A DNA stretch of 64,000 nt from Promicromonospora sukumoe 327MFSha3.1 (GTDB lineage: Bacteria; Actinomycetota; Actinomycetes; Actinomycetales; Cellulomonadaceae): NCBI RefSeq assembly GCF_000385135.1, contig NZ_ARQM01000012.1, forward strand, positions 1-64,000. The letters are read 5' to 3'. The translations under genes were made by a program, and so were the position numbers. Numbering within the stretch: position 1 is the first letter of the stretch; each line of letters starts with the position of its first letter. Of the stretch, positions 20,359-63,479 are shown piece after piece. The notes under the pieces were generated by a model. That model saw only the letters and a program-made list of their open reading frames with translations. It made no database searches and had not been told where the DNA came from.

Positions 20359-20410
20359 CGACGTGTCAGACGCTCAGATCCCTGGAGGGGTCTGAGCGTC
20401 TGACACGTCG
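20359..20410. terminator. Bidirectional hairpin, perfect 20-bp arms (family B)
   Basis: Arms at 20359-20378 and 20391-20410 (CGACGTGTCAGACGCTCAGA and its complement) enclose 12 nt. It fills the 58-nt gap between two convergent genes, so it probably terminates both. The arm and loop start are shared with the hairpin at 47250-47301. Confidence 0.7.
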
Positions 20411-20415
20411 TCTTA

Positions 20416-21261
20416 TCAGGAGGTGAAGGTGTGGGTCTGCCGGCCCAGGTTCTCGATCTCCAGGGTCACCTCGTCGCCGTCGCGCAGGTACGGGAAACGG
20501 CCGGAGAGGGCGACGCCCTCGGGCGTGCCCGTGCAGATCAGGTCGCCCGGCTCGAGCGCCATGTACTGCGACAGGTGGTGCACGATCGCGGCGACGTCGA
20601 AGATCATGTCCGCCGTCGACGAGTCCTGCCGCGGCTCCCCGTTGACGAAGGAGCGCAGGCGCAGGCCGCCCGGGTCCACCTCGTCGGCCGGCACGAGCGC
20701 CGGGCCGGTGGGCAGGAACCCCGGCCCGCACTTGCCCTTGGACCACTGGCCGAGCGAGTCGTCGAGCTGCCACGCGCGCTCGCTGACGTCGTCCACCACG
20801 GTGTAGCCCGCGACGTGCTCCCGCGCCGCCTCGACCGACGGCAGGTAGCTCGCGCGCCGGCCGATCACGACCGCAAGCTCCACCTCCCAGTCGACCTTCT
20901 CGGCGCCGGGCGGCAGGGGCACGGCGTCGTCCGGCCCGGCGACGGTGTTGGGGTGCTTGAAGAAGATGATCGGCAGGCGCGGCGGCTCCGCGCCCGACTC
21001 GCGCGCGTGCGCGGCGTAGTTCTGCCCGATGCAGACGACGGCGGCCGGGCGCGCGATCGGCGCCCCGCGGCGCAGCGCGTCCGCGCCGTCGAGCACGGGC
21101 AGCTCCCCCGTCGCCAGGGCGGCCCGGGTGCGGGCCACGCCGTCGGTGGCGAGGAACGCGCCGTCGACGTCGGCGGTCAGCGGGCGCAGGTCGTAGGTGA
21201 CGCCGTCGGAGGTGACGGCGGGGATCTCCTGGCCGAGGGGGCCCAGGCGGAGCAGGTGCAT
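20416..21261 (-). CDS. FAH-family hydrolase, probable 2,4-diketo-3-deoxy-L-fuconate hydrolase
   Basis: A 281-aa fumarylacetoacetate-hydrolase-fold enzyme. Metal ligands are seen in WEVELAVVIG (two Glu, near residue 126) and DDVSERAWQ (Asp). IGQNYAAHARE and ICTGTPEGV are family blocks lining the active site. In the non-phosphorylating fucose pathway such an enzyme cleaves 2,4-diketo-3-deoxy-L-fuconate to pyruvate and lactate. The neighbouring SDR would supply that diketo acid. The specific substrate is inferred from context. The ATG at 21261 has CGAGGA five bases upstream and lies 36 nt after the SDR stop, so the two form one minus-strand operon. Confidence 0.85.
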   Translation of the reverse strand: MHLLRLGPLGQEIPAVTSDGVTYDLRPLTADVDGAFLATDGVARTRAALATGELPVLDGADALRRGAPIARPAAVVCIGQNYAAHARESGAEPPRLPIIFFKHPNTVAGPDDAVPLPPGAEKVDWEVELAVVIGRRASYLPSVEAAREHVAGYTVVDDVSERAWQLDDSLGQWSKGKCGPGFLPTGPALVPADEVDPGGLRLRSFVNGEPRQDSSTADMIFDVAAIVHHLSQYMALEPGDLICTGTPEGVALSGRFPYLRDGDEVTLEIENLGRQTHTFTS

Positions 21262-21297
21262 CGTGTCCTCGTTCTCGGTTCGGGTGGGCAGAGGGGC

Positions 21298-22065
21298 TCA
21301 GGCCTGCTCGGGCGGCCGCACGCGCAGCTCGTGCATGCCGCCGTCGACCGCGAGCGCCGTGCCCGTGGTCGCCGTGGCGAGCGGGCTGGCGAGGTAGCAG
21401 ACGGCGTGCGCGACGGCCTGGGGGCTGACCAGCTTGCCCGTGGGCTGGCGGGCCTCGAGGGCGGCGCGCTCGGCGGCGGGGTCGGCGGCGGCGTCGAGCA
21501 GGCGGCCCACCCAGGGTGTGTCGACGGTGCCGGGGTTCACGCAGGTCACGCGGATGTTCTCGCGCACGTGGTCGGCGGCCATCGCGAGCGTGAGCGCCTG
21601 GACGGCGCCCTTGCTCGCGGAGTAGAGGGCGCGCTGCGGCAGGCCGGTCCAGGAGGCGATGGACGCCGTGTTGACCACCGCGGCGTGCTCGGACTCGCGC
21701 AGGTACGGCAGCGCGGCGCGGGTGACGCGCACGATGCCGAGCACGTTGACGTCCAGCACGCGCAGCCACTCGGCGTCGTCGTTGTCGGCGACGGTGCCCT
21801 GGGCGCCGATGCCGGCGTTGTTGACGACGACGTCGATGCCGCCCAGGCGCCGCGCGGCGGCCTCGACGGCGGCGCGGACGGCGGCGTCGTCGGTCACGTC
21901 GGCGACCTCGCCGCTCGCGCCCTCGGGCACGCCGTCGGCGGAGCGGTCGATCGCGACGACCTGGGCGCCGCGCTCCAGCAGGGCGGTCACGACGGCGGCG
22001 CCGATACCGGACGCCCCTCCCGTGACGATGGCGCGGACGCCGTCGAACTCAAGGGCTGTGGTCAC
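21298..22065 (-). CDS. SDR dehydrogenase, probable 2-keto-3-deoxy-L-fuconate dehydrogenase
   Basis: A 255-aa classical short-chain dehydrogenase. NAD-binding TGGASGIG lies near residue 14 and NNAG near 87; the catalytic Ser is in NTASIASW and Tyr/Lys in YSASK. The C-terminal GTALAVDGG is typical. The start is GTG at 22065 because a strong AGGAGGAG lies 6 nt upstream; an ATG 84 nt earlier has no ribosome site and adds non-family residues. It is the first gene of a two-gene operon with the FAH hydrolase, divergent from alpha-L-fucosidase. Expected to oxidise the 2-keto-3-deoxy acid at C4. The substrate is inferred from the locus. Confidence 0.87.
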   Translation of the reverse strand: MTTALEFDGVRAIVTGGASGIGAAVVTALLERGAQVVAIDRSADGVPEGASGEVADVTDDAAVRAAVEAAARRLGGIDVVVNNAGIGAQGTVADNDDAEWLRVLDVNVLGIVRVTRAALPYLRESEHAAVVNTASIASWTGLPQRALYSASKGAVQALTLAMAADHVRENIRVTCVNPGTVDTPWVGRLLDAAADPAAERAALEARQPTGKLVSPQAVAHAVCYLASPLATATTGTALAVDGGMHELRVRPPEQA

Positions 22066-22162
22066 GGGAACTCCTCCTGGAAAACGGCTGCGATGGCGAT
22101 TCATCCAATCTATAGCACCGATCCGTGCCAATTCGTAGGGCTCGATCACGTTCTGGACCCGC

Positions 22163-22168
22163 TAGGCT
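22163..22168 (+). promoter_or_regulatory. Candidate -10 element of the fucosidase promoter
   Basis: TAGGCT in the divergent gap matches the hexamer found at other genes here, but it lies 75 nt before the fucosidase ATG, so this transcript would have a leader with a Shine-Dalgarno sequence. The -35 is weak. No clear copy of the CGATTATCGATTA motif is present in this gap. Confidence 0.35.
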
Positions 22169-22243
22169 CGACCTACTCGAAGCGATACGTCATACCTCTG
22201 CCCGCGCTTCGGGTTCAACCGCTCGACGAGGAGTGATCCGCAC

Positions 22244-23566
22244 ATGTCCCAGCCGGCCGATTCCGCCCCGCAGCCGCACCTGGACCGGACCTGGTTCACC
22301 GAGGCCAGGTTCGGCCTGTTCGTGCACTTCGGGCTGTACTCCGCCGCGGCCCGGCACGAGTGGGTGATGAGCAACGAACGCCAGACCGTCGAGCAGTACG
22401 AGCGCTACGCGGAGGTGTTCGACCCCGACCTGTTCGATGCCCGGGCGATCGCGCGAGCGGCCAAGGACGCCGGGATGCGGTACGTGGTGCTGACCACCAA
22501 GCACCACGACGGCTTCGCCCTGTGGGACTCCGCCGTCAGCGACTACTCCGTCGCGCGCACGCGGGGGCGCGACCTGGTCGCGGAGCTGGCCGAGGCGGTG
22601 CGGGCCGAGGGGCTGCGCCTGGGGCTGTACCACTCGCTCATCGACTGGCACCACCCGGACTTCACCGTGGACTTCGTGCACCCCCGCCGGGACGACCCGG
22701 ACGCCCACGCCCTGAACGAGGGCCGCGACATGGCGCGGTACCGCACCTACCTGCACGCGCAGGTGCGCGAGCTGCTCACCGGGTACGGCGCCGTCGACTA
22801 CGTGTTCTTCGACTACACCTACGCCCACGACCGGGACGGGTGGCGCGGCAAGTACCCCGAGGACTGGGACGCCGAGGGGCTGCTCGCCCTGGTCCGCGAG
22901 CTGCAGCCGCAGGCCGTGGTCAACGACCGCCTCGGCATCCCGGGCGACCTGGTCACCCCGGAGCAGTACCAGCCGGACCAGCCCATGCGGGACGACGCCG
23001 GCACGCCCATCACCTGGGAGGCCTGCCAGACGCTGAACGGGAGCTGGGGCTACGACCGGGACAACACCCGGTTCAAGGACCCGGACCTGCTGGTGCGCAT
23101 GCTCGTGGACACGGTGGCCAAGGGCGGCAACCTGCTGCTGAACATCGGCCCGGACGGGCGCGGCGCGATCCCGGCCCGCGACGCGACCACGCTCGCGGCG
23201 CTCGGAGCCTGGACCCGGCTGCACGGCCGCTCCATCACGGGGGCGGGTCCCGCGGAGCCGGAGCTGGCCCAAGCCCTCGCGCCGGGGCTGCCGCCCGGCG
23301 TCGTGCTCACGCAGCGCGCCGACCGGCTGTACCTGCACCTGTTCGCGTGGCCGTTCGCGCACGTGCACCTGCGCGGGCTGGCCGACCGCGTGCGGTACGC
23401 CCAGCTGCTGCACGACGGCTCCGAGCTGCGCGCCACCCGCACCGACCCGGACCAGAAGGCGTGGAACACGACGCCCGGCGGGCAGCCGCCCGGCACCCTG
23501 ACGCTGCACCTGCCCGCGGCGCGGCCCGACGTCGCGGTGCCGGTGGTCGAGCTGTTCCTGCGATGA
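22244..23566 (+). CDS. GH29 alpha-L-fucosidase, cytoplasmic
   Basis: It hydrolyses terminal alpha-L-fucose from oligosaccharides. The 440-aa protein starts RTWFTEARFGLFVHFGLYS, the conserved GH29 opening. It carries YVVLTTKHHDGFALWDS and the nucleophile Asp in YVFFDYTY (near residue 190). The NLLLNIGPDGRG segment and a short C-terminal beta domain are also typical. No signal peptide is seen, so it acts on imported substrate. That fits the transporter at 5361-8443. The start has CGAGGAGTG about 11 nt upstream. It anchors the fucose assignment of the whole locus. Confidence 0.95.
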   Translation: MSQPADSAPQPHLDRTWFTEARFGLFVHFGLYSAAARHEWVMSNERQTVEQYERYAEVFDPDLFDARAIARAAKDAGMRYVVLTTKHHDGFALWDSAVSDYSVARTRGRDLVAELAEAVRAEGLRLGLYHSLIDWHHPDFTVDFVHPRRDDPDAHALNEGRDMARYRTYLHAQVRELLTGYGAVDYVFFDYTYAHDRDGWRGKYPEDWDAEGLLALVRELQPQAVVNDRLGIPGDLVTPEQYQPDQPMRDDAGTPITWEACQTLNGSWGYDRDNTRFKDPDLLVRMLVDTVAKGGNLLLNIGPDGRGAIPARDATTLAALGAWTRLHGRSITGAGPAEPELAQALAPGLPPGVVLTQRADRLYLHLFAWPFAHVHLRGLADRVRYAQLLHDGSELRATRTDPDQKAWNTTPGGQPPGTLTLHLPAARPDVAVPVVELFLR

Positions 23567-23663
23567 GGCTCCTGCGATGAGTTCGGGGGCGCGCCGTCGT
23601 CGGACAGGGCATGAACCTGAAAAAGCATCGGCGGCCCGCCCCCTCGTCAGGCAGGGTTGAGCC

Positions 23664-24989
23664 ATGAGCGACGTCGACATGCCCCGCTGGAAGCGCAACG
23701 TCGGGCTGTTCCTCGCCGGCCAGACCATCTCCCTGTTCGGGTCGATGGTGGTCATGTACGCGGTCATGTGGCACCTGACCATCGAGACGCGGTCCGGGTC
23801 GGTGCTCATGCTGAGCATCGTGTTCGGCATGCTGCCGCAGGCATTCGTGTCGATCTTCGGCGGGGTGTGGGCGGACCGGCACCACCGCAAGTTCCTGATC
23901 ATGGGCTCGGACACCGTCATCGCCCTGGCGACCCTGGCGCTCGCGCTGCTCATGGTCAGCGGCGTCGACTCGCTCTGGGTCATCTACGCCGCGCTGGCGG
24001 TGCGCTCCGTGTTCGCCGGCATCCAGACGCCGGCCGTGAGCGCGATGATCCCGCAGATCACCCCGACCGACCAGCTCATGCGCGTCAACGGAATCTTCCA
24101 GTCCATCCAGTCGGGCATGATGCTGCTCGCCCCGGCCCTGGCGGCCGTGATCTACGCGTCCTTCGACATCGTCACCGTCTTCTTCGTGGACGTCGTGACC
24201 GCGCTGCTCGGCGTCGGGATGCTCGCGCTGGTCGCGGTGCCGCGCCTGGTGCGGTCCGACGCCGGCGAGCCGGTCAGCTACTTCGGCGACCTCGCCGCGG
24301 GTGTGCGGTACATCCGGTCGAACGCGCCCGTGCGGTGGCTCATCACGCTGTTCGCGTTGGTCATGTTCCTGGTGGGGGCGCCGAGCTACCTCACGCCGCT
24401 CATGGTCACCCGCACGTTCGGCGACGAGGTGTGGAAGCTGACCGCCAACGAGCTGTTCTGGGGCGGCGGCATGCTGCTGGGCGGCATCATCATGGCGTCG
24501 GTCGGGCCCCGGGTCACGCGCCGGGTGCGCCTCATGGTCGGGTCGGTGCTCGCCACCGGCGTGCTGGTCGCCGGGCTGGGCGTGGCCACGAACATGTGGG
24601 TGTTCTTCGGGATCGGGCTGGTGATCGGCGTCATGTTCGCGGCGCTCAACACCCCCGCGCTGACGATCATCCAGGAGCGCGTGGAACCCGAGATGCAGGG
24701 CCGGGTGTTCGGCTTCGTGGGCATCGTGATGACCGTGGCGATGCCGCTGTCCATGGTGGTGTTCGGCCCGCTGGCCGACCAGTTCTCCGTCCAGGCGCTG
24801 CTGATCCTGGCCGGCGTGCTGCTGGTGGCGGTGCTGGGCGCGATCCTCGCGTTCCCCGGGGCGCGGCGCTCGCTCGGGCAGGTCGACGCGGCGCCGGCTG
24901 CCGCACCGGAGGAGGCTGCCGCGGATGCCGTCGCGGCAGCGGGGCCGGCGACGTCGGCTGTGCCACAGGACACAGCCGACCTGCGCTGA
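23664..24989 (+). CDS. MFS transporter, DHA3/macrolide-efflux type
   Basis: A 441-aa integral membrane protein with about 12 helices. The cytoplasmic loop 2-3 motif GGVWADRHHRK matches the MFS signature. The N-terminal helix FLAGQTISLFGSMVVMYAVMWHL and the second-half loop RVFGFVGIVMTVAMPLS match DHA3 drug exporters. A C-terminal Ala/Glu-rich tail of about 40 residues is cytoplasmic. AGGG about 8 nt before the ATG supports the start. It follows the fucosidase by 97 nt but probably has its own role in efflux. The substrate is unknown. Confidence 0.9.
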   Translation: MSDVDMPRWKRNVGLFLAGQTISLFGSMVVMYAVMWHLTIETRSGSVLMLSIVFGMLPQAFVSIFGGVWADRHHRKFLIMGSDTVIALATLALALLMVSGVDSLWVIYAALAVRSVFAGIQTPAVSAMIPQITPTDQLMRVNGIFQSIQSGMMLLAPALAAVIYASFDIVTVFFVDVVTALLGVGMLALVAVPRLVRSDAGEPVSYFGDLAAGVRYIRSNAPVRWLITLFALVMFLVGAPSYLTPLMVTRTFGDEVWKLTANELFWGGGMLLGGIIMASVGPRVTRRVRLMVGSVLATGVLVAGLGVATNMWVFFGIGLVIGVMFAALNTPALTIIQERVEPEMQGRVFGFVGIVMTVAMPLSMVVFGPLADQFSVQALLILAGVLLVAVLGAILAFPGARRSLGQVDAAPAAAPEEAAADAVAAAGPATSAVPQDTADLR

Positions 24990-25025
24990 CGGCGTGAAAG
25001 TATTGCTGGGTCCCATAGCCGTCAG
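24986..25025 (+). terminator. Weak hairpin after the MFS gene
   Basis: CTGACGGC (24986-24993) and GCCGTCAG (25018-25025) are complementary. The left arm overlaps the MFS stop codon and the right arm lies just before the ATP-grasp gene. It could be a terminator or part of the next gene's leader. Confidence 0.35.
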
Positions 25026-25046
25026 CCATCCGTGCGGAAGGTTCCT

Positions 25047-26027: not shown

Positions 26028-26047
26028 CGGGTCGGGTGCGACCGTTG

Positions 26048-26118
26048 GTGCGCTTCTACCCAGTCATTGCGCCCGAAAACACGCTGTTTTCGGGCGCAAT
26101 GGCTGGGTAGAAGCGCAC
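26048..26118. terminator. Very long hairpin, 34-bp arms, between convergent genes (family A)
   Basis: Arms 26048-26081 and 26085-26118 are complementary except for one G-U-compatible position, with a 3-nt loop. The core TACCCAG-CATTGCGCCCGAAA is shared with the hairpins at 30735 and 42247. The position between two converging genes suggests bidirectional termination. There is no T tract. Confidence 0.7.
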
Positions 26119-26140
26119 TACCGGTCGAGCGGCGGGTAGG

Positions 26141-27550
26141 TCAGGCGAAGGCGAAGATCGGGCCGAAGGCGACCACGACGATCGTCGCCCACACCGCGTA
26201 GACCGGCAGGTACGCCGTCTGCCAGCGCTCGATCGCGCCGAACGTGCGCTGCCCGCGCACGAAGCCGGTCGCCAGCCACGCCGCCCACGCGAGGTGCACC
26301 AGGAGCACCAGGTTGAGCCCGAGCGCCGCGACCTTGTTGGCGGTGAACCCGAACTCGGCGATGCGGGTGAGCATCGCGGTCAGGGCCACGGCGTCCACCG
26401 CGAGCGCCGCACCGACCAGGACGAGCTGCAGCCAGTCGAAGATCCCGGGCGGGGCGTGCGGGTCGCGGGCCGAGATCGAGTACAGCAGCAGGAACAGGAC
26501 CAGCACGAGGATCGCGTCCATCAGGATCAGCAGCTCGCGGTCGACGTCGGTGAGCGGCCCGTTGACGAGCAGCACCACGAACATCGCGACCAGCATGACG
26601 ATGGTCAGCGGCGTGAACACGCGGGTCAGGACCGGGGCGATGTTCTCGACGACGTTCTTCTTGGCCTCCACCAGCCAGGCGCTGACCAGCAGCGCCCCCG
26701 GCAGGCAGAACGGCAGGAGCCAGTCCGCGAAGAACGGCTCGAAGTCGACGCCGACCAGGCTGAGCGTGCCGACGGTGAGCCCGATGAGCAGCCCGCCCCC
26801 GAGCGCGACGAGCGCGAGGTAGATGATGAGCTCGCCCGTGAACCGGACGAAGTCCATACGGCGCGCGCTCGACCGCCAGGCACCGCCGGCGTACACGACG
26901 CCGAGGAGGAGCCAGAGCACCACGGGCGTGTGGGTGATCGCGAGGAACTCGGTCATGCCGGGCTCTTGGTAGGGGCCGGACTCGAACGGGTAGAGGTTGA
27001 CCACGAGCGCGAGCGCCGTCGTGATCGCGAGCAGTACGGCGCTCACCCGCCACGACACGTGCCGCTTCCACACGAAGTACCCGGCCAGGAACGGCAGGAC
27101 GGCGAAGACGCCGTTGCGCACGAGCACCAGCTCGTTGCCGACGGTCGCGGCGAGCAGGACCTTGAGCACGATCCCGGCGCCGACCGCGAGGGCCAGGACG
27201 ACGGCCAGCTCACGCCAGCGTCCGCTGTCGCCGGGCTCCTCGGGCACGAGCACGAGCTGCTTCCAGAGCCGGTCGGAGTGCTCGCGCGCGAACTCGCGGG
27301 ACACCTCGTCGAGGTTGCCCATGCGCTTGACCGCGACGAGGAACGCCTCCTCGTCCTCCAAGCCACCGGCGGTCAGGTCGCTGACCTGGCCGCGCAGGTG
27401 GTCCTCCATCTCGTCGACGTCGGCAGCCGAGATCGCCCGACGGCGCTGGACGTACCCGCGCCACAGGTCGATCTGCTCCTCCAGCACGACGTGCTCGGCG
27501 GGCTCCGTCCGCTGGGCGGGTCCGGCGTCGTTCCCGTTCTGGTCGCTCAT
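26141..27550 (-). CDS. Permease-prefix-domain membrane protein
   Basis: A 469-aa integral membrane protein. Residues about 30-95 form a charged helical permease-prefix domain (QRRRAISAADVDEMEDHL...MGNLDEVSREF). About ten membrane helices follow, resembling DUF4153-type proteins. The ATG at 27550 overlaps the PadR stop (TGATG), so the two are translationally coupled; PadR/permease-prefix pairs are common. The function is unknown; a drug- or envelope-stress-linked membrane role is a guess. The same frame is open upstream into padR, but only as an antisense-free overlap without coding signal. Confidence 0.85.
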   Translation of the reverse strand: MSDQNGNDAGPAQRTEPAEHVVLEEQIDLWRGYVQRRRAISAADVDEMEDHLRGQVSDLTAGGLEDEEAFLVAVKRMGNLDEVSREFAREHSDRLWKQLVLVPEEPGDSGRWRELAVVLALAVGAGIVLKVLLAATVGNELVLVRNGVFAVLPFLAGYFVWKRHVSWRVSAVLLAITTALALVVNLYPFESGPYQEPGMTEFLAITHTPVVLWLLLGVVYAGGAWRSSARRMDFVRFTGELIIYLALVALGGGLLIGLTVGTLSLVGVDFEPFFADWLLPFCLPGALLVSAWLVEAKKNVVENIAPVLTRVFTPLTIVMLVAMFVVLLVNGPLTDVDRELLILMDAILVLVLFLLLYSISARDPHAPPGIFDWLQLVLVGAALAVDAVALTAMLTRIAEFGFTANKVAALGLNLVLLVHLAWAAWLATGFVRGQRTFGAIERWQTAYLPVYAVWATIVVVAFGPIFAFA

Positions 27551-27912
27551 CAGGCCCACCCCTCCGCGACGGCGGGGCCGGGCTGGACGTCCTGCCACAC
27601 CTGCTTGAGCGCGTCGGAGACGACGGCCCACTGCTGGCGGCGCTCCGCGAGCGCCTCCTTTCCCGACGCGGTGATCGCGTAGTGCTTGCGCCGGCGCCCG
27701 ACGTCGGACGTGCCCCACGTGGCCTTGACGTACTCGAGGCGCTCGAGCCGGTGGAGCAGGGGGTAGAGCATGCCGTCGGTCCACTCCATGCGGCCGCCGG
27801 AGAGCTCGTTGACGCGCTTGAGGATCGCGTAGCCGTACGACTCGCCGTCGGCCAGGATGCCGAGGACGAGCGGCGTGGCGGACGCCGCGACCAGATCCTT
27901 GTCGATGTGCAC
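27550..27912 (-). CDS. PadR-family transcriptional regulator
   Basis: A 120-aa winged-helix repressor. TPLVLGILADGESYGYAILKR begins the helix-turn-helix. MLYPLLHRLERLEYV is the recognition helix and wing start, and a C-terminal dimerisation helix follows (ALAERRQQWAVV). I place the start at GTG 27912, five bases after AGGAG. A GTG at 27918 would abut that sequence with no spacing. The gene is coupled to the permease-prefix membrane protein downstream. A large inverted repeat covers its ribosome site and upstream region and holds two copies of CCTAG-N5-CTAGG, probably its own operators. Confidence 0.93.
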   Translation of the reverse strand: MHIDKDLVAASATPLVLGILADGESYGYAILKRVNELSGGRMEWTDGMLYPLLHRLERLEYVKATWGTSDVGRRRKHYAITASGKEALAERRQQWAVVSDALKQVWQDVQPGPAVAEGWA

Positions 27913-27916
27913 CTGC

Positions 27917-27973
27917 ACTCCTATGCCTAGTGCTGCTAGGGATGCCTACCCTAGCAGCACTAGGCATAGGAGT
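27917..27973 (-). promoter_or_regulatory. padR operator region, perfect 24-bp inverted repeat
   Basis: Arms 27917-27940 and 27950-27973 are perfectly complementary around a 9-nt loop. Each arm contains a palindromic CCTAG-N5-CTAGG (27926-27940 and 27950-27964), an arrangement expected for two bound PadR dimers. The padR Shine-Dalgarno AGGAG lies in the proximal arm, so an RNA hairpin would also hide it. Confidence 0.65.
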
Positions 27974-30734: not shown

Positions 30735-30788
30735 TACCCAGCGATTGTGCCCGGAATCCACGTGGGATCCGGGCACAATCGCTGGGTA
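30735..30788 (-). terminator. Long hairpin after argH (family A)
   Basis: A perfect 21-bp arm pair (TACCCAGCGATTGTGCCCGG followed by A) at 30735-30755 and 30768-30788, with inner pairing to the centre. It lies 21 nt past the argH stop, so it probably ends the arg operon transcript. Confidence 0.7.
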
Positions 30789-30809: not shown

Positions 30810-33532
<2,723 letters not shown>

Positions 33533-40627: not shown

Positions 40628-40701
40628 TCGGCAGTTGGCATTGAGATCGGCTCAGGCCTGAGCCGATCTCGATGCCAACTGCCGAGTTTGCCGGGCAAAC
40701 T
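40628..40701 (+). terminator. Two stacked hairpins after the quinone oxidoreductase gene
   Basis: TCGGCAGTTGGCATTGAGAT begins a 29-bp arm (40628-40656) that is complementary to 40657-40685 with one G-U-compatible position and no loop. A second small hairpin AGTTTGC-CGG-GCAAACT follows (40685-40701). They lie 29 nt past the stop. Confidence 0.65.
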
Positions 40702-42246: not shown

Positions 42247-42301
42247 CAGCCCAGCGATTACGCCCGAGACCGCCACCGTTCCGGGCGCAATCGCTGGGCT
42301 G
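42247..42301 (+). terminator. Long hairpin after the GH43 gene (family A)
   Basis: CAGCCCAGCGATTACGCCCG (42247-42266) pairs with 42282-42301 except at one A-C position, with a 15-nt loop. The sequence is closely related to the hairpins at 26048 and 30735. It lies 24 nt beyond the stop codon. Confidence 0.7.
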
Positions 42302-43636: not shown

Positions 43637-44431
43637 TCACCCCCTAGTCTCGGCCTTCGGGGGCGGCGTCGGCCAGGCGGGGTGGGTCAGGCCCTGCTCG
43701 AAGAAGAGGTACTCGTGCACCGACGAGATCTCGAAGGCGCGCAGCATGCGTTCCCGCTGGTCCGGGGAGACCCAGCGGGCGGCGTCGTCCGCCAGGGCGC
43801 ACGCCTGCCGGGTCGCGACCTGGAAGCCCTCGTCGCCGTAGGTGCCGATCCAGGTGGCGTAGGGATGGCCGGCCAGCCCGCCGGGGCGGCGTCGAGCCAG
43901 GTCCACGAGCACGCCGCCGACGTGGGCGTAGAGCCAGTAGCAGGGCAGCAGCGCCGCGATGGTCTCCGCGTAGCTGCCCGACGCCGCGGCGTGCAGGTGG
44001 CCGGTGTACGCCGCGGTCACGGGCGAGGCCTCGACGGCGGCGACGTCGCCCGCGGCGAGCCCGGTATGCGCGCCGAGCCAGTCGCGGTGCAGCGCCGTCT
44101 CGACCTCCAGCGCCGAGACCGACGACCGGACGAGGAAGCCCTGCGCGGCCGGGTCGGGCGCGCTCTGCGCGGCCCGCGCCAGAACGCGCGAGTACTCACG
44201 CAGGTACGCGGCGTCCTGGGCGAGGTAGAACGCGAACGCCTCGGCGGGCAGCGAGCCGTCCGCGAGCGCCGCGATGAACGGCATGTGGTCGACGGCGTCG
44301 CGCCAGCCCGCGATGCGGTCCCAGGCCTCCTCGGTGAAGGGGCGGACGGCGCCGTCGTCGGGCGCGGTGCGGGCAGGGGTAACGGCAGGTGTCTCCGCGG
44401 AGACGGGTACGACAGAGGTCACGATGGACAT
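43637..44431 (-). CDS. tenA: Thiaminase II / aminopyrimidine aminohydrolase TenA
   Basis: It salvages thiamine degradation products by hydrolysing the aminopyrimidine. The 264-aa all-helical protein has the catalytic Cys in LLPCYWLYAHVG (about residue 164) and a Glu in VHEYLFFEQ near the C-terminus. FYLAQDAAYLREYSRVLA is a family block. An N-terminal tail of about 30 residues is low-complexity. The start is ATG 44431, inside the GGCGAAGGGATG end of a TPP riboswitch. A larger frame starting at 44572 crosses the riboswitch and is not used. Confidence 0.93.
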   Translation of the reverse strand: MSIVTSVVPVSAETPAVTPARTAPDDGAVRPFTEEAWDRIAGWRDAVDHMPFIAALADGSLPAEAFAFYLAQDAAYLREYSRVLARAAQSAPDPAAQGFLVRSSVSALEVETALHRDWLGAHTGLAAGDVAAVEASPVTAAYTGHLHAAASGSYAETIAALLPCYWLYAHVGGVLVDLARRRPGGLAGHPYATWIGTYGDEGFQVATRQACALADDAARWVSPDQRERMLRAFEISSVHEYLFFEQGLTHPAWPTPPPKAETRG

Positions 44432-44505
44432 CCCTTCGCCAGCATGATCTGGATCAGGTTCGACGGGTGTGGTCTCAGCCCTGGCAGGGCACCCCGTGTC
44501 ACGTG
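44427..44505 (-). ncRNA. TPP riboswitch (THI element)
   Basis: Read on the minus strand, it shows the conserved ACGGGGTGCCC, GGGCTGAGA, ACCTGATCCAGATCATGCTGGCG and GAAGGGATG blocks of the thiamin pyrophosphate aptamer, given here in pieces. P1 forms between GACA (44500-44497) and TGTC (44430-44427), and the latter includes the TG of the tenA start codon. TPP binding should therefore close the start codon and repress translation. Confidence 0.93.
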
Positions 44506-44537
44506 CCACTGAGGCTACCGGACGCCACGGGCGGTCG

Positions 44538-47200: not shown

Positions 47201-47249
47201 GGGTCGGCGCGACCCGGGCACCATGGGTGTACGTCCGCGGATCGTGCTC

Positions 47250-47301
47250 GACGTGTCAGACGTACAGATCCCTCGGGTGACCTGTACGTCTGACACGTCG
47301 G
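47250..47301 (-). terminator. Long hairpin after the secreted unknown gene (family B)
   Basis: CGACGTGTCAGACGTACAG (47250-47268) pairs perfectly with 47283-47301. The loop begins ATCCCT, like the family B hairpin at 20359. It lies 7 nt after the stop of the upstream secreted-protein gene. Confidence 0.7.
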
Positions 47302-47308
47302 GCGGGGC

Positions 47309-48553
47309 TCAGAACGACGAGGCGTCCGCCGCGTACACCCACCGGTGGCCCGGGTACTCGCCGAGCGACCACAGGTAGTCTCGCGTCGGGTCGTAGGACA
47401 GGTCCTCGGCGCCGACCGTCAGCGCGTCGCCGTGGCGCACGATCGAGCCCGACGGCGCGACGAACGTGTGCAGGTCGCCGTCCGAGTTCGGGTTCGAGAA
47501 GTCGTCCCCGTCGCTCTGCGAGAAGAAGAACTCGCCGTTGATCGCCGTCGAGCCCTGCACGCTCTCCAGGTCCGTGCGGTATGCCTCGGTCGCCTTGATG
47601 ACGCCGTCCGAGGCCGGCTTCAGGTACCGGTTCGTGTAGTCGATCGGCACGCGGATGGTCCGCACCTGGGCCCCCTTCTCGAGCTCGTCCTTGCTGCGGT
47701 ACTCGCTGACGACCACCGAGTCCGGCGAGCTGCTGCGGTCCAGCGACACCGACGAGTGCTGCAGCTGCGCGTAGCCGCCCGCCGTCGAGTCCGTGAACTT
47801 CGCTGTCTGCGGCAGCACGTACTTGTAGTCGAACGCGTGGTACGAACCGTCGGACTGCCGCCCGATCTTCGACGCGCTGCCCGTCGAGACCTGCCACAGG
47901 TGGTCCAGGTCGAACACCCGGAAGCCGCCGCCCGTGTCCGCCACGTACAGCAGGTTTCCGTACCACATGATGCCGCCCGCGTGGATGTCGATCGGCTTGA
48001 ACGACGGCGCGGCCGCGGTGCCGCTCGGCTCCACCAGCAGCAGGTGCCGGTACGGCGGTGCCGAAGTGCTCGCCGACAGGTTGGACACGCTGATGCGGAC
48101 GCCCTTGTCGATGCCGTCCTCGGCGTGGTCGTACCAGCTCACCAGGTTGATCCGCTTGCCCTCGTAGGTGCCCGCGGCGAACGCGTCCGAGCTGGTGGTG
48201 ATGCCCTGCGGGTACCAGGCGCTCGTGTCCTGGTCGCCGTCGTTCCAGCAGTAGTACGCGGTGCGGTGCGTCACCGAGGGCGCGCTGCCGCAGGTCGGGG
48301 TGCGGTTGCCGTCGTCGGCCACGGTGCTCATCGAGACGTTCGGCAGGGCAGAGTCGAGGGCGCCGATCAGGGACGACGACGTCTCGGACAGCGTGTAGCG
48401 GAAGTTGCCCGCGGTGAGCGGCGTGGCGGCGGCTGCGAGGGACGAGGTTTGTTCGTCGGAAGCCTGGGTTGCGGCGGCCTGGCCCGCTGACGCGAGCAGG
48501 GCGACCACCCCCAGGCTCGCTACGGCAAGTGCGGAACGACGACGACGGCGCAT
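47309..48553 (-). CDS. Secreted protein of unknown function, 414 aa
   Basis: I do not recognise a named family. Signal peptide about 1-28 (SLGVVALLASAGQAAA). The mature part is beta-rich with repeated aromatic/Gly-Asp turns (GGIMWYGNLLYVADTGGGFRVFDLDHLW, YEGKRINLVSWYDHAEDGIDKG, TRDYLWSLGEYPGHRWVYAAD), suggesting a beta-propeller. Two Cys (PTCGS, YYCWN) may form one disulfide. It is divergent from the SGNH hydrolase gene at 48772. An extracellular binding or structural role is inferred only. Confidence 0.8.
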   Translation of the reverse strand: MRRRRRSALAVASLGVVALLASAGQAAATQASDEQTSSLAAAATPLTAGNFRYTLSETSSSLIGALDSALPNVSMSTVADDGNRTPTCGSAPSVTHRTAYYCWNDGDQDTSAWYPQGITTSSDAFAAGTYEGKRINLVSWYDHAEDGIDKGVRISVSNLSASTSAPPYRHLLLVEPSGTAAAPSFKPIDIHAGGIMWYGNLLYVADTGGGFRVFDLDHLWQVSTGSASKIGRQSDGSYHAFDYKYVLPQTAKFTDSTAGGYAQLQHSSVSLDRSSSPDSVVVSEYRSKDELEKGAQVRTIRVPIDYTNRYLKPASDGVIKATEAYRTDLESVQGSTAINGEFFFSQSDGDDFSNPNSDGDLHTFVAPSGSIVRHGDALTVGAEDLSYDPTRDYLWSLGEYPGHRWVYAADASSF

Positions 48554-50049: not shown

Positions 50050-50094
50050 GGAGGCGGGCGGCCGCGGGTCGGGTCGTGTCCGCCGATCGCCTTC

Positions 50095-50148
50095 GAGGCC
50101 TAAGTTTCTTCGCTTTGCGTCGTCTCAAAGCGAAGAAACTTAGGCCTC
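50095..50148 (+). terminator. Long AT-rich hairpin after the SGNH gene
   Basis: A perfect 23-bp arm pair (GAGGCCTAAGTTTCTTCGCT start) at 50095-50117 and 50126-50148, with an 8-nt loop. The A/T-rich stem is unusual against its GC-rich surroundings. It is the only clear structure in the 239-nt gap 50050-50288, and may serve both converging genes. Confidence 0.65.
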
Positions 50149-50288
50149 AAAGCGGAGGTTGGCCGCGCCAGTTGCGACGGGCTGGGCCGGGGGCCGCGTG
50201 CCCGGTCAGCCGGCCGACCGCCCGGTCAACGAACGTCGCGCCCGGTTCGGTCGGCCACGTGTCGGGACCGCGCCCGCGAGAGCACGTC

Positions 50289-56009: not shown

Positions 56010-56041
56010 GGGGCGCTCCCCGCGCTCCGGGGAGCCATTTC

Positions 56042-56500: not shown

Positions 56501-56506
56501 GCGATC

Positions 56507-56512
56507 ACCGTA
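56507..56512 (-). promoter_or_regulatory. -10 element of leaderless ytfJ-like promoter
   Basis: TACGGT on the minus strand, 6 nt before the ATG at 56500. Confidence 0.5.
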
Positions 56513-56584
56513 GGGGACCGTCCGCCGGGGCGATACAGCAGGAGCATTTGTCACCCGCTCGCCCGGCCCGCGCGGTGCGCGCGG

Positions 56585-57169: not shown

Positions 57170-57192
57170 GTCGGAGGCGGCGTCCGGCAGCC

Positions 57193-58062: not shown

Positions 58063-58091
58063 TGTCCGGGCGTCCGGTGAGATGCTCAACC

Positions 58092-58475: not shown

Positions 58476-58543
58476 GTGAGACTCCTTGTTACTTCGGGCT
58501 GGAAGGGTTCCTGGCGGCGCACGTCAGGCGCGCGCCACGGGGG

Positions 58544-58738
58544 TCACTTACCGAGCAGCTTCTTGATCTTCTTGACGTCGGCCGGTGCAACGACCTGGTC
58601 CACGGCCAGACGACGCGTACGACGGCTGGACTTGTGCTCGAGGTAGTGGCGGGCGTTGGTCTGCTCGCGCATGACCTTGCCGCTACCCGTGACCCGGAAC
58701 CGCTTCTTGGAGCCGGAGTGCGTCTTGTTCTTCGGCAT
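58544..58738 (-). CDS. rpmI: 50S ribosomal protein L35
   Basis: A 64-aa basic protein, starting [20 protein letters not shown], with [12 protein letters not shown] and [10 protein letters not shown] at the end. Typical length. It lies 102 nt downstream of infC in the conserved infC-rpmI-rplT order. Confidence 0.98.
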
Positions 58739-58840
58739 GACTGCCGTCTCTCCTCATGTCGGTCGACCGTTGCTGGAACGGCGACGTTTACCTGGGCCGG
58801 TAAGCCGGCCCGGTGTCGTGGTGGTCTTGGGGACCTGGCC

Positions 58841-59791
58841 TCAGCCGGCGTTGCGTGGTGCTCGCGGCTTGGGGGCCACGGGCTTCGGCACCGGCTTGGG
58901 GGCCGGGGCCGGCTTCGGAGCTGCCTTGGCGGCGGGCTTCGCTGCCGGCTTCGAGGCAGCCTTGGCCGCGGGCTTCGCTGCCGGCTTCGGCGCCTCCGCC
59001 GGGGCGGGGGCCTCCGCGACCGGCTCGGGCTCGGGCTCCGGCTCGACGACGGCTTCCTCGACGACCGGCTCCTCGACCGCGGGCTCCTCGACGGGCTCCG
59101 GCGCGACGACTGCGGCCGACTCCTCGACGGGGGCCTCGACGGCCTCGGTGACCTGGTCCTCGGCGAGCTCGTCGCCCTCGGGCGCCTCGGCCGCACGGGC
59201 CTGCGCCTTGGCCTCCGACTTGGTCATCCGGCCCGCGTTGATCTCCGTAGCGCGCTTGCGCTGCTCGACCTTGGCGTCAGCCTTCTTCTTGACCGGCCCG
59301 AGGACCATGGTCATGTTTCGGCCGTCCTGCTTGGGCATGGACTCGACGAAACCGAGATCGGCCACGTCCTCCGCCAGGCGCTCCAGCAGGCGACGACCCA
59401 TCTCCGGGCGCGACTGCTCGCGACCACGGAACATGATCATGACCTTGACCTTGTCGCCGGCCGAGAGGAACCGCTCGACGTGGCCCTTCTTGGTGCCGTA
59501 GTCGTGCGGGTCGATCTTGAGGCGGAACCGGATCTCCTTGAGGACCGTGTTCGCCTGGTTGCGCCGGGCTTCCCGCGCCTTCATGTCGGACTCGTACTTG
59601 AACTTGCCGAAGTCCATGAGCTTGGCGACGGGCGGGCGGGCGTCCGGCGCGACCTCGACGAGGTCGAGGTCAGCGTCCTGGGCGAGCTTCAGGGCGACCG
59701 CCGTGGCAACCACGCCGACCTGCTCCCCGCCAGGACCGATGAGACGGACCTCGGGGACACGGATCCGGTCGTTGATGCGAGGCTCGGTGAT
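58841..59791 (-). CDS. infC: Translation initiation factor IF-3 with long C-terminal extension; ATC start
   Basis: IF-3 binds the 30S subunit and checks the start codon. The 316-aa product is much longer than the usual 180: the N-domain ([20 protein letters not shown]) and C-domain ([24 protein letters not shown]) end near residue 180. They are followed by an acidic Glu/Pro/Val stretch and a Lys/Pro/Ala-rich basic tail ([18 protein letters not shown]). I place the start at ATC 59791, seven bases after AAGGAG (59804-59799). No ATG, GTG or TTG lies at a suitable distance. Non-AUG infC starts are known to allow IF-3 self-regulation. Confidence 0.95.
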
Positions 59792-60158
59792 GGTGATGCT
59801 CCTTGGAAGTCGTTGATCGACCACCAGGAACGGGAAATGGCCCCCGCCCTGAACACAGGTGGAGGCCATCACGAGGAAAGGACACGCTGCTCCGGCAACA
59901 GCACCGCCGGACCTTCGTACCCGACCAAGGACCCGGACTCTGTCGGCATCTTGCGATGCGCTGTCGTGACTCGGGTGGGATGGAATCCACTTTGCGCACC
60001 CGGCTCACACCGGGTCGGTCGTGCCTACACGGTACCAGCAGGAGGAGACCACTTGCCAGGCGGGCCGGTGTGAGGTGGGCCGCCTCACATTCCACCGGGC
60101 GAAACCTGTTGCCCGGCTCAACTGGAATGATTCCAGTTTAGGGCCTAGGCTCGGGTCC
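59792..60158 (-). other. infC leader and furA/infC divergent region
   Basis: This 367-nt gap holds the infC promoter and leader on the minus strand and the furA promoter on the plus strand. An imperfect 12-bp hairpin (59837-59848 with 59858-59869) lies 33 nt before the infC Shine-Dalgarno sequence and could be an attenuator. A small hairpin CCCGG...CCGGG is at about 60000-60015. No gene is supported; a plus-strand frame entering furA from 60021 lacks a ribosome site. Confidence 0.45.
60120..60151 (+). promoter_or_regulatory. Fur/PerR-type box and -10 element of furA
   Basis: AACTGGAAT-G-ATTCCAGTT (60120-60138) is a perfect 9-1-9 palindrome, the 7-1-7 layout of Fur-family boxes. TAGGCT (60146-60151) and a 7-nt spacing to the ATG follow, so the transcript is probably leaderless and self-repressed. 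Confidence 0.75.
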
Positions 60159-60623
60159 ATGACGTCCACCGCCCCAGCCGCCGCGACGCCCGAGGACCTC
60201 CTCCGCGGCGCCGGCCTGCGCGTGACCGCCGCCCGGGTGGCGGCGCTGCGCGCGGTGGGCGAGAACCAGCACGCCACGGCCGACGCCGTGCTGGGCTCGG
60301 TCCGCGCCGAGCTCGGCACGGTGTCCGTGCAGGCGGTCTACGACGTCCTGCACGCACTGACCGACGCCGGGCTCCTGCGCCGCATCGAGCCCGCCGGGCA
60401 CCCCGCCCGCTACGAGCGCCGCACCGGCGACAACCACCACCACATCGTCTGCCGCAGCTGCGGCGCCATCGGCGACGTGGACTGCACGGTGGGCCACGCG
60501 CCCTGCCTCACCCCGAGCGACGACCACGGCTTCGTGGTCGAGACCGCCGAGGTGACGTACTGGGGGCTGTGTCCCGACTGCCGCGACCAAGGCTCCGGTG
60601 CCGACCCCACCGCGCAGCCCTGA
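60159..60623 (+). CDS. Fur-family peroxide regulator (FurA/CatR/PerR type)
   Basis: A 154-aa metalloregulator, probably sensing peroxide and repressing the catalase gene next door. The winged helix contains [11 protein letters not shown]...[40 protein letters not shown] and a C-terminal CPDC form the structural zinc site (two CxxC). The position 73 nt upstream of katA and the palindrome in its own promoter support autoregulation. The ATG at 60159 is placed by TAGGCT spacing; the longer frame is not used. Confidence 0.93.
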
Positions 60624-60696
60624 CCGCAAGACCTTCCAGCCCCGCTGGAACCCCGCAAGAACCCCCGCAAGCAGCAGCAGAGGAAGGCACGTCTGA

Positions 60697-62145
60697 ATGA
60701 CTACTCCCTACACCACCACGCAGACCGGTACCCCGGTCGCCAGTGACGCACACTCGCTGACCGTCGGCGCCGACGGCGCCACGGTCCTCCACGACCGCTA
60801 CCTGGTCGAGAAGCTCGCGCAGTTCAACCGCGAGCGCATCCCGGAGCGGATCGTGCACGCCAAGGGCGGTGGCGCCTTCGGCGAGTGGGAGATCACCGGT
60901 GACGTGTCGCGGTACACGCGTGCGGCGGCCTTCCAGCCGGGCGCCAAGGGCGAGGTCGCGCTGCGCTTCTCGTCCGTGGCCGGCGAGATGGGCTCCCCCG
61001 ACACCTGGCGCGACGTGCGCGGTTTCGCGCTGCGCTTCTACACGACCGAGGGCAACCTCGACATCGTCGGCAACAACACGCCGGTCTTCTTCATCCGCGA
61101 CGCGATCAAGTTCCCGGACTTCATCCACTCGCAGAAGCGCCTCCCCTGGTCGGGCCTGCGCGACGCCGACATGCAGTGGGACTTCTGGACCCTGTCGCCG
61201 GAGTCGGCGCACCAGGTCACCTACCTCATGGGCGACCGCGGCCTGCCGGCCTCGTGGCGCGAGCTGAACGGCTACGGCTCGCACACCTACCTGTGGACGA
61301 ACGACGCGGGCGAGAAGTTCTGGGTCAAGTACCACTTCATCTCCCGCCAGGGCGTGAAGTTCCTCAGCCCGGAGGAGGGCGAGAAGATCGCCGGCGCCGA
61401 CGCGGACTACTACCGTCGCGACCTCTACGAGGCCATCGAGCGCGGCGACAACCCGGTCTGGGACATCAAGGTCCAGGTCATGCCGTACGACGACGCGAAG
61501 ACCTACCGGTTCAACCCGTTCGACCTGACCAAGGTCTGGCCGCACGCGGACTACCCGCTGATCCACTTCGGCCACTTCACGCTGAACCGGAACCCGAAGA
61601 ACCACTTCGCGGAGATCGAGCAGATCGCGCTGTCCCCGGCCAACCAGGTCCCGGGCACGGACATCTCGCCCGACAAGATGCTGATGGCCCGCGTGTTCTC
61701 CTACCCGGACGCGCAGCGCTACCGCGTGGGCACCAACTACCAGTCGGTGCCGGTCAACCAGCCGCACGCGGCTCCGGTGCACAACTACTCGCAGGACGGC
61801 TCGCAGCGCCACCACTTCAACGAGGTGGGCACGCCCAACTACGCGCCGAACTCGTTCGGTGGCCCCGTGGCCGACCCGGCCCGCGGGCACGACGGCTCCT
61901 GGGCGCAGGACGGTGAGCTGGTCCGCACCGCGGCCACGCTGCACAGCGAGGACGGCGACTTCGTCCAGCCGGGCACGCTCTACCGCGAGGTCTACGACGA
62001 CGGCGCCAAGGCCCGTCTGCTGGAGACCCTGACCGGCCAGGGCCAGTCGATCACGATCGACGAGATCCGTGAGCGCTTCTTCCAGTACTGGACGAACGTG
62101 GACGCCGAGCTGGGCGCCAAGCTGCGCGCGGCCGTCGCGGCCTGA
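60697..62145 (+). CDS. katA: Monofunctional heme catalase
   Basis: It breaks down H2O2 in the cytoplasm. The 482-aa small-subunit (clade 3) catalase has the active-site His in [15 protein letters not shown] (near 53) and Asn in [21 protein letters not shown] (given in part). The heme-ligand Tyr is in [17 protein letters not shown] (near 335). GAGGAAGG nine bases before the ATG supports the start. It is paired with the Fur-type regulator upstream, probably forming one peroxide-induced unit. Confidence 0.98.
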
Positions 62146-62160
62146 TCCAGCAGCACGCAA

Positions 62161-62195
62161 CCGAGGCCGGGCTCCCCTGGGGAGCCCGGCCTCGG
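62161..62195 (+). terminator. Perfect 17-bp hairpin terminator of katA
   Basis: CCGAGGCCGGGCTCCCC (62161-62177) and its complement (62179-62195) are separated by one base, 15 nt beyond the katA stop. Confidence 0.75.
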
Positions 62196-62214
62196 CCGTT
62201 CCCCGGGGTCACTC

Positions 62215-62295
62215 GCTGAGTCGTGTTCAGCAGGCCGGAGGCGACCGGAAACGGGCTGGTTCCGGCCGCCCGCGGCCTGCTGAACGTGACTCAGC
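62215..62295. repeat. 81-nt long inverted repeat between katA and the GH18 gene
   Basis: GCTGAGTCGTGTTCAGCAGG opens a 23-bp arm (62215-62237) that pairs with 62273-62295 with two G-U-compatible positions. An inner hairpin CCGGAA...TTCCGG is within. It follows the katA terminator and so is not needed for it; it may be a mobile palindrome or a second terminator. Confidence 0.6.
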
Positions 62296-62446
62296 CCGCG
62301 GTATGAGGGATTTCCACCGGGATCACCGGTGGTCCTTGTCCGGCCGTGGCGGCGGCGGATAGCGTCCCGAGGTGCTCCACAGCGCTTCGGCGCCGTCCGA
62401 GATGCCCACCGCACCGAGAACCGCACCGAGAACAAGGGAGCCGACC

Positions 62447-63406
62447 ATGCCCCGCTCGCTCGTCCGAATCGGCGCCGCCCTCGCGGCCGGCCTGCTGGCA
62501 CTGACCGCGGCCGCCGGCCCCGCCGCCTCCGCGCCGGACCCCGCCCCGGAACAGGCGCAGGCCCCGGCCGCCGCCTCCCACCGGGTCCTGGCCTTCTACC
62601 AGACGATCTACGAGACCGGGTCGGACGGCGTGCGCCGGTACGTCGACCCCAAGCCGCTGCTCGGCTCGGTCACCGACGTGAACGTGGGCGCGATCCACCT
62701 GAACTCCGACACGTCGCTCACGGTCAACGACATCCCGGCCGACCACGCCGAGCTCGGCGTCATGTGGGACGACCTGGCCACCATGCAGGACCAGGGCGTC
62801 ACGATCAGCGCGTTCCTCGGCGGGGCCGCACCGGGCACGTACCGCTACCTGCGCGAGGACTTCGACCGGTACTACCCGGTGCTCCGCGACTTCCTGCGCA
62901 CCTACGACCTGGACGGCGTGGACCTCGACATCGAGGAGACGTTCTCCCTGGCGGACACGGTGCACCTGATCGACGCACTGCGCGCGGACTTCGGCCCGGA
63001 CTTCATCGTGACCCTGACGCCGGTGGCGACCGACATGGCCGGCCGGACGAGCTTCTCCGGCGGCTTCTCCTACGCCGAGCTGGAGCGCCAGGCCGGCGAC
63101 CGCATCGACTGGTACAACACGCAGTTCTACTGCGGCTGGGGCGACCTGCGCACCACCACGGTCTACGACCAGATCCTCGCGAACGGCTTCACGCCGGACC
63201 GCGTGGTGGCCGGCACCGTCACCAACCCCGGCAACTGCAGCGGCTACGTGGACTGGCCCACGTTCGACGCCACGGTCGGCTCCCTGGTCGCGGCGCACCC
63301 GGACTTCGGCGGCGTCTTCGGCTGGGAGTACTTCAACTCCGTGGGGTACGACGGCGGCGGCCGGGCGTCCTGGTTCTCGCACGTACGGGACGTGGTGGGT
63401 TCCTGA
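62447..63406 (+). CDS. Secreted GH18 family glycosidase (chitinase / endo-N-acetylglucosaminidase type)
   Basis: A 319-aa exported protein. Signal peptide about 1-30 (AALAAGLLALTAAAGPAASA). The GH18 barrel has the catalytic motif DGVDLDIEE (DxxDxDxE, near 158), with the preceding ISAFLGGAAPGT strand. It ends in a VFGWEYFN strand with the expected Trp. It probably cleaves beta-1,4-GlcNAc linkages in chitin or glycoprotein N-glycans; short family members without extra domains are often ENGase-like. AAGGGAG seven bases before the ATG supports the start. Confidence 0.92.
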   Translation: MPRSLVRIGAALAAGLLALTAAAGPAASAPDPAPEQAQAPAAASHRVLAFYQTIYETGSDGVRRYVDPKPLLGSVTDVNVGAIHLNSDTSLTVNDIPADHAELGVMWDDLATMQDQGVTISAFLGGAAPGTYRYLREDFDRYYPVLRDFLRTYDLDGVDLDIEETFSLADTVHLIDALRADFGPDFIVTLTPVATDMAGRTSFSGGFSYAELERQAGDRIDWYNTQFYCGWGDLRTTTVYDQILANGFTPDRVVAGTVTNPGNCSGYVDWPTFDATVGSLVAAHPDFGGVFGWEYFNSVGYDGGGRASWFSHVRDVVGS

Positions 63407-63417
63407 CGACGTCGCGT

Positions 63418-63479
63418 GGTCGGTAGAAGGTCAGGTGGTCGGCAGCCCGGGCTGCCGACCACCTGACCTTCTACCGACC
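63418..63479. terminator. Perfect 62-bp palindrome between convergent genes
   Basis: Two 31-bp arms (63418-63448 and 63449-63479) are flawless complements with no loop; the outer ends read GGTCGGTAGAAGG and CCTTCTACCGACC. It lies 11 nt past the GH18 stop and 43 nt before the end of the oppositely oriented oxidase gene, so a bidirectional terminator is the simplest role. Confidence 0.7.

Follow-up and report, generated by a model that had tools for sequence, protein, structure and literature searches.

Introduction

Previous studies described repetitive extragenic palindromic (REP) sequences, the REP doublets forming hairpins (REPINs), and their REP-associated tyrosine transposases (RAYTs) in gamma- and other Proteobacteria (PMC3733652, cited like later sources for the passages that bear on each point; see also PMC2817692 and PMC3116915), and REP dimers can fold into larger structures (PMC3733652). 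REP-like stem-loop families lacking the terminal tag are known from M. tuberculosis, Deinococcus, Bordetella, Brucella, and Cyanobacteria (PMC3733652; PMC2267715). Hairpins without a U tract have also been described as terminators in mycobacteria (PMC12288462), and Streptomyces transcript termini carry 3–4 U in 10 nt (PMC12207403). It is disputed how high-GC actinobacteria terminate transcripts in the absence of a U tract, and also whether REP-like repeats act as parasites or as parts. Both questions meet in a set of long palindromes that we analyzed in a 64,000-nt stretch of Promicromonospora sukumoe 327MFSha3.1 (contig NZ_ARQM01000012.1, positions 1 to 64,000; hereafter the window), where an initial reading of the sequence (the original prediction) had pointed out nine near-perfect inverted repeats closing transcription units.

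These palindromes are like REPs and REPINs in being dispersed between genes, in forming several families per genome, in lying mostly in convergent or co-directional gaps, and in their patchy distribution across species. They differ in having symmetric arms of 20–43 nt, whereas REP stems measure 6–13 bp (GTAG type) or 8–9 bp (CGTC type) and carry the tag at one end (PMC3733652); here no end tag is enriched, and no Y1 transposase was matched in 13 genomes of the genus. With the untagged families, which include one from an actinobacterium, they share stem-loops without terminal tags, but slot-by-slot family replacement and exclusion of single-copy hairpins are not described for those families in the passages cited (PMC3733652; PMC2267715). 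They likewise resemble the I-shaped mycobacterial and low-U Streptomyces terminators, in which a stable hairpin poor in U or free of it also lies shortly downstream of the stop codon in a high-GC actinobacterium; the cited passages present those as hairpins rather than repeat families, whereas here the hairpin is a dispersed repeat (PMC12288462; PMC12207403). DNA uptake sequences (DUS) are short words, mostly solitary and present in vast numbers, unlike the long arms found here, which are seldom alone except in one family (F8). Terminators built from inverted DUS are mentioned in PMC2267715, and they are comparable in that a dispersed repeat, arranged as inverted pairs, also acts as a terminator. 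Full-text literature searches on the F8 core, actinobacterial palindromes at convergent genes, REP/RAYT, Promicromonospora, and uptake-sequence terminators gave nothing describing such families among the matches listed, subscription papers being mostly outside their scope.

The window palindromes are members of dispersed repeat families

All nine inverted repeats were recovered by a hairpin search of the window, with starts within 9 bases of those first reported and some arms longer. In the window, 15 hairpins reach a score of ≥12, compared with 1, 1, and 0 (each of score 12) in three first-order Markov sequences matched to it in length. Folded as RNA, the nine palindromes have energies of −46.7 to −84.9 kcal/mol (z −6.65 to −13.25 versus shuffles), and an Rfam scan at the gathering threshold gave no match at any of them.

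The genome comprises 6.25 Mb in 18 contigs and is labelled G000 where it has to be told from its relatives. Families were counted in 1.80 Mb of it (29%), taken as consecutive stretches rather than a random draw. Intergenic palindromes of score ≥11 entered this census, and families were defined as single-linkage clusters of arm sequence, at an arbitrary score, with at least three copies. The census found 375 intergenic palindromes, 218 of which fall into 12 families of 47, 45, 30, 27, 17, 16, 10, 9, 7, 4, 3, and 3 copies, so that many dispersed intergenic copies exist here as in REP/REPIN systems; the cluster of 45 joins the related subfamilies F4, F5, and F9. Extrapolation from these consecutive stretches gives approximately 750 family copies per genome. 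A further 95 palindromes of score ≥13 are single-copy, a set that still includes the PadR operator candidate described below. In 864 kb of the genome, 197 hairpins reach score ≥13, versus 8 when one Markov sequence stands for each contig stretch, and the largest family, F1, has at least 78 strand-matches in the genome (40 of 194 candidates scored).

All nine window palindromes belong to families of at least three copies, and eight belong to families of 17 to 47; they are members of dispersed repeat families and not independent terminators. The genome-wide class that had been predicted therefore exists, and the alternative of few other copies fails, but it is not a single hairpin class: about a dozen sequence families stand beside a separate single-copy set. 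It is scarcely credible that the palindromes are ordinary intrinsic terminators that are long by chance in a 73% GC genome and whose copies are unrelated. Such an account suits the T-enriched single-copy set, whereas the clustering rules it out for the family set, in which non-orthologous copies are more than 90% identical in their arms (a value partly fixed by the search pattern) and 47–59% identical in their loops.

Gene ends were called with a purpose-written codon-usage gene caller. As predicted, the palindromes follow gene ends or lie between convergent genes: four are in convergent gaps, and five are 3′ of one gene and followed by a co-directional gene. Those in convergent gaps, to which no strand is assigned, are an F1 palindrome at 20359–20410 (core ACGTGTCAGACnnnCAGGTCAC; cluster of 47), an F2 palindrome at 26039–26127 (core GTGCGCTTCTACCCAGtCATTgGGCCCG; 43-nt arms, 93% complementary; cluster of 17) between a RimK-like gene and the gene at 26141–27559 (−), an F3 palindrome at 50091–50152 (CTTTGAGGCCTAAGTTTCTTCGCTTTG; cluster of 30) between GDSL lipase and SDR genes, and an F5 palindrome at 63418–63479 (TGGTCGGcAGAACGTCAGGTGGTCGGCA; 31-nt arms, 100% complementary; merged cluster of 45). 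The other five comprise two F2-like palindromes (cluster of 17), one at 30735–30788 (−) downstream of the argininosuccinate-lyase-like gene 30810–32288 (−) and one at 42247–42301 (+) downstream of a GH43 gene; an F4 palindrome at 40628–40685 (+; TCGGCAGTTGGCATcGAGATCGG; merged cluster of 45) 3′ of an alcohol-dehydrogenase-like gene; an F1 palindrome at 47249–47300 (−; cluster of 47) downstream of the gene 47309–48508 (−); and a low-copy palindrome with an inner hairpin at 62215–62295 (+; 36-nt arms, 86%; family of 3 in the sample). The last begins 20 nt after a single-copy, GC-rich hairpin with 17-nt arms at 62161–62195 (+), an ordinary terminator candidate downstream of a catalase gene that had not been listed before. 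This single-copy hairpin has a counterpart in the congeners G010 and G008, a similar hairpin in G009, and a different one in G007; the low-copy palindrome beside it has a counterpart in none of the four relatives compared.

Family copies lie at gene ends and tend to take the place of single-copy hairpins

The 218 family copies are distributed over convergent (110), tandem (99), and divergent (9) contexts; counted by gap, a copy is present in 96 of 272 gaps between convergent genes, in 92 of 996 tandem gaps, and in 8 of 271 divergent ones. In 1.0 Mb of G000 plus five congeners, family palindromes begin a median of 26 nt after the stop codon (upper quartile 55 nt), and the median for single-copy hairpins in the same set is 21.5 nt. 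Among convergent gaps, 143 measure ≥60 bp, and 114 of these contain a family or single-copy palindrome. The two kinds are rarely found together there: when ≥50 bp are free beside any family copy, 5 convergent gaps hold both, 41 a family copy only, 32 a single-copy hairpin only, and 34 neither (odds ratio [OR] 0.13, p 3.1e-5). Family copies thus tend to take the place of single-copy hairpins.

The preference for convergent and unidirectional gaps is the same as that of REPs in other phyla (PMC3733652). The copies could accordingly be purely selfish repeats, similar to REPs or miniature inverted-repeat transposable elements (MITEs), that play no part in ending transcripts and survive at 3′ ends since insertion elsewhere is harmful. 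The patchy distribution of the families and the background level of T runs next to them (both given below) suit such repeats, which would not be expected, however, to exclude single-copy hairpins from convergent gaps. We regard this explanation as unlikely, also in view of the ortholog comparisons that follow.

Orthologous slots keep a palindrome while its family changes

Ortholog slots were compared between one region of G000 (C12:1-204000) and collinear stretches of five congeners with a mean protein identity of 88–97%. Among 46 slot-by-species comparisons at 15 slots, 25 show a palindrome of the same family in the relative and 14 a different palindrome, and in 7 the relative has none; four of these seven concern the catalase slot, where the relative has only a single-copy or another hairpin and was scored as none. 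At least one swap occurred at 8 of the 15 slots. Where the same family is missing, another palindrome is present in 14 of 21 comparisons, versus 15 of 123 gaps of ≥40 bp that are palindrome-free in G000 (Fisher p 4e-7, the comparisons not being independent), an excess that selfish repeats do not predict. At orthologous positions in these congeners, families replace one another, in addition to the paired changes reported below.

Orthologous gap sequences were inspected by eye for 13 gaps and four window slots, in congeners whose divergence is too high for placing the junctions that would show a target-site duplication. The clearest case is slot 26039, where G000 has F2, five congeners (G004, G008, G010, G011, and G001) have a family X (GAGTGCTGGATcTTCGCCCTT), and two (G007 and G009) have a family Y (GGTGTGTTGCGCaGCGTAGACA); X or Y is thus found in 7 of 12 congeners, and in the remaining five no palindrome was seen and the gene order is different. 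Slot 20359, which holds F1 in G000, holds family X in G004 and F1 in G008. At slot 42247, the same type occurs in G010, G004, and G007 and another palindrome in G008 and G009; at slot 47249, F1 is likewise present in G010, G008, and G004. At slot 40628 in G010 (L085, G010 C1, 611-1398), four tandem units of ~250 bp each carry an F9-type palindrome. Outside the window, the convergent gap at G000 C12:100096-100099 (4 bp long there, 15 bp in G008) is hairpin-free in both genomes, whereas the orthologous gap has an F3 palindrome in G010 and G004 and another hairpin in G007.

Slot 30735 keeps an F2-like palindrome in 8 of 12 congeners, with an unrelated one in G005 and none scored in G006 and G012. 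In G004 (L094, G004 C170, ~800-900), the left arm of an F2-like palindrome stands directly next to an intact F1 palindrome, an arrangement that may represent a family replacement caught midway. The same arrangement is what would be expected of a mover that targets existing hairpins and inserts into old terminator stems, in which case exclusion and swaps would follow automatically from the choice of target and would not reflect function. Two observations speak against that. First, the outer flanks of copies in seven families are not complementary clearly beyond chance (16 of 200 shuffles scored as high for F2 and 31 of 200 for F1), so nested remnants are not general, and insertion into older hairpins was rejected as a general rule. 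Second, F1 and X in G010, at slots 163262 and 159891, each lie beside, not inside, a conserved single-copy hairpin. A hairpin-targeting mover is, in our judgement, rather improbable. This F1 copy in G010, which G000, G008, and G009 lack, sits in a slot that was already filled by a recognizable hairpin, as selfish repeats might. Like the F3 copies at the otherwise hairpin-free gap, the F1 copy next to a leftover arm in G004, and the patchy distribution of F3 in the genus, it speaks for mobility.

Arm sequence and arm pairing are conserved

Between orthologous family copies, identity is higher in arms (797/918 positions) than in loops (85/115) and flanks (666/1049), as counted in 20 ortholog pairs from which slot 40599 and pairs with arms <60% identical had been excluded, a selection that favors arms; purely selfish repeats would not lead one to expect this difference. 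Loop length is constant within families, being 4 nt in 34 of 34 F1 copies, 15 nt in 14 of 14 F2 copies, and 10 nt in 16 of 16 F3 copies that match the search pattern.

The arms of F1 contain TGTCAGAC, whose positions are 95–100% conserved over 42 copies, a figure biased upward since the copies were picked by near match to it. Conservation of arm sequence beyond pairing would also be expected of sites that act at the DNA level, with a nucleoid, gyrase-like, or recombination protein binding the arms and the palindrome mattering as DNA or as a cruciform, and the preference for G.U on the sense strand (see below) is weak or absent. However, the variable central triplet of F1 still pairs between the arms at 0.90–0.93 versus 0.49–0.54 expected, which a protein binding two half-sites would not need, and such sites would not account for the exclusion of single-copy hairpins. 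A DNA-level role is very unlikely for these reasons. The F1 triplet is symmetric in 29 of 37 copies, which show 8 different triplets; the 8 asymmetric copies divide equally into those whose arms differ at a single position and those with two or three differences. Mismatches of the latter kind, such as GTA with CCC, suggest recombination between copies.

At orthologous arm positions of family copies, 36 have changed on both sides and are still paired, 57 have changed on one side, 10 are mispaired in both, and 433 are unchanged; the 36 paired double changes indicate that pairing is kept. When family and single-copy pairs were pooled, and with slot 40599 and its differing subfamilies included, symmetric changes comprised 23 transitions and 18 transversions (n = 41), versus 52 and 13 among one-sided changes (n = 65). 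Stepwise compensation through G-U pairs was accordingly rejected as the sole cause of the symmetric changes, and their richness in transversions fits replacement by another copy better than slow G-U compensation. Self-complementarity is kept, as had been noticed at the outset, but not simply by G-U compatible steps.

Distribution of the families and the search for a mover

Searches across genomes scored 4–11 candidates per genome, so that copy numbers are lower bounds and absences hold at that sensitivity. Among 81 genomes drawn from the taxonomic family, F3 was found in 3, all of this genus; three further congeners in the draw gave no match, and G010, G008, and G004 carry it as well. F1 was found in 6 of the 81, one of them of another genus, and F8 is patchy across the class (25 of 197 genomes, multi-copy in few). 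These near-perfect palindrome families point to an unfamiliar way of copying such palindromes, and the copies presumably arrive by transposition or by recombination between copies.

Two candidate movers were considered. A RAYT/Y1 transposase (PF01797) was rejected after it had no match in the 13 genomes of the genus, while 5 of 14 named control genomes, E. coli among them, gave one. The arms might also derive from the ends of a resident insertion sequence, as in a MITE, which the scarcity of unpaired arms outside F8 does not favor: 29 of 373 arm matches in the 1.80 Mb lack a partner within 90 bp (their neighborhoods were not searched for transposases). Decayed half-elements are thus rare, which again is not what selfish repeats would leave. 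The tags of REPs are not enriched either: GTAG occurs near the ends of 9 of 218 family copies versus 6 of 218 for the control CTAC (0 of 95 single-copy palindromes), and CGTC near the ends of 24 of 218 versus 32 of 218 for the control GACG (8 of 95 single-copy palindromes). Within their paired arms, F2, F6, F7, and family Y do contain GTAG.

F8 arms behave differently. In the 1.80 Mb, called genes contain 31 of the 37 F8 arms that lack a partner (e.g., G000 C11:122341 and 122374; C10:161755, 245249, and 245285). Three such genes were translated, and the arms read as in-frame, stop-free, linker-like stretches (LVEPVETP, GSGVSTGSTS), two of them LVEPVET-like. We take F8 arms within genes to resemble the palindromic repeats inside rickettsial proteins.

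A probable role at transcript ends

The original prediction left open whether the repeats were terminators or palindromic elements. They are dispersed palindromes, and a terminator role is backed indirectly by gene context, by the exclusion of single-copy hairpins, and by slot conservation. On balance, we think it probable that they are REP-like, dispersed, mobile palindromes which act as hairpins at transcript ends and supplant each other in conserved slots. About a dozen families, with fixed-sequence arms of 20–30 nt and a free-sequence loop of fixed length, would have been copied to hundreds of intergenic sites and retained chiefly at gene 3′ ends. Folding of the transcript there would give a highly stable hairpin, lacking a U run, that terminates or protects the mRNA, and between convergent genes it would do so in both directions. 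Selection would keep the slot rather than a particular occupant: the arrival of a new copy, whether from the resident family or a different one, would make the earlier hairpin redundant and let it decay, and families would therefore replace one another at conserved slots.

The hairpins themselves agree with this role in part. Family copies have the stable hairpin soon after the stop codon that canonical intrinsic terminators have and lack the U tract; a hairpin without a U tract within ~50 nt of the stop is what defines an I-shaped terminator (PMC12288462). The mean number of T in the 8 nt after the hairpin is 1.44 in family flanks versus 1.22 in the background (p 0.001), a small rise, and single-copy hairpins are T-enriched, with a mean of 1.80 and ≥4 T in 11.3%.

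Several results weigh against a transcript-end role or against replacement at conserved slots. At least 4 T in the 8 nt after the hairpin occur in 3.4% of 319 family flanks versus 3.3% of 1287 random intergenic 8-mers, a comparison that bears out, for the class as a whole and not copy by copy, the near-lack of T tracts first noted. For the families, G.T versus A.C mismatches on the sense strand are 67:41 in G000, a weak preference (p 0.016 per mismatch, 0.085 per element), and 13:18 in relatives. A first mixed set gave 55:49, and single-copy hairpins gave 28:14 in G000 and 10:6 in relatives; taken as a probe of selection at the RNA level, these ratios point in no clear direction. One title cited in PMC12288462 states the opposite of a terminator function for mycobacterial hairpins without a U tract. 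Exclusion between family copies and single-copy hairpins is weaker in convergent gaps with ≥80 bp free (both 5, family 18, single-copy 17, neither 19; OR 0.31, p 0.058), and in tandem gaps the OR is 0.48, 0.47, and 0.37 (p 0.07, 0.09, and 0.024) at 30, 50, and 80 bp. Nine family copies lie in divergent gaps, some convergent gaps of 4–15 bp have no hairpin, and 2 of the 14 swaps (40599 in G009 and 82392 in G008) involve diverged members of a single cluster. Finally, the 13 genus genomes searched gave no counterpart of the RAYT that accompanies REPs elsewhere.

A wider reading can be put forward tentatively, and with more doubt than confidence: the genus may draw its transcript ends from a common pool of palindrome families that are mobile, the slot after each gene being conserved and its occupant periodically replaced by a mover unrelated to RAYT, so that a selfish repeat would have become an exchangeable terminator part. 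Sister species with different hairpin families at the same gene end offer a natural experiment on how U-less hairpins act.

Other features of the window

A further palindrome, with perfect arms of 25 nt and no strand assigned, lies at 27917–27973, at the start of the PadR-family regulator gene 27550–27918 (−). It is single-copy, was absent from the nine first listed, and is present in 11 of 12 congeners (missing in G006), also where the neighboring glycosylase gene sits elsewhere. It is probably an operator of the PadR regulator and is set apart from the terminator-like class. The sole Rfam match at the gathering threshold in the window is a thiamine pyrophosphate (TPP) riboswitch at 44414–44506 (−), with 71 bits.

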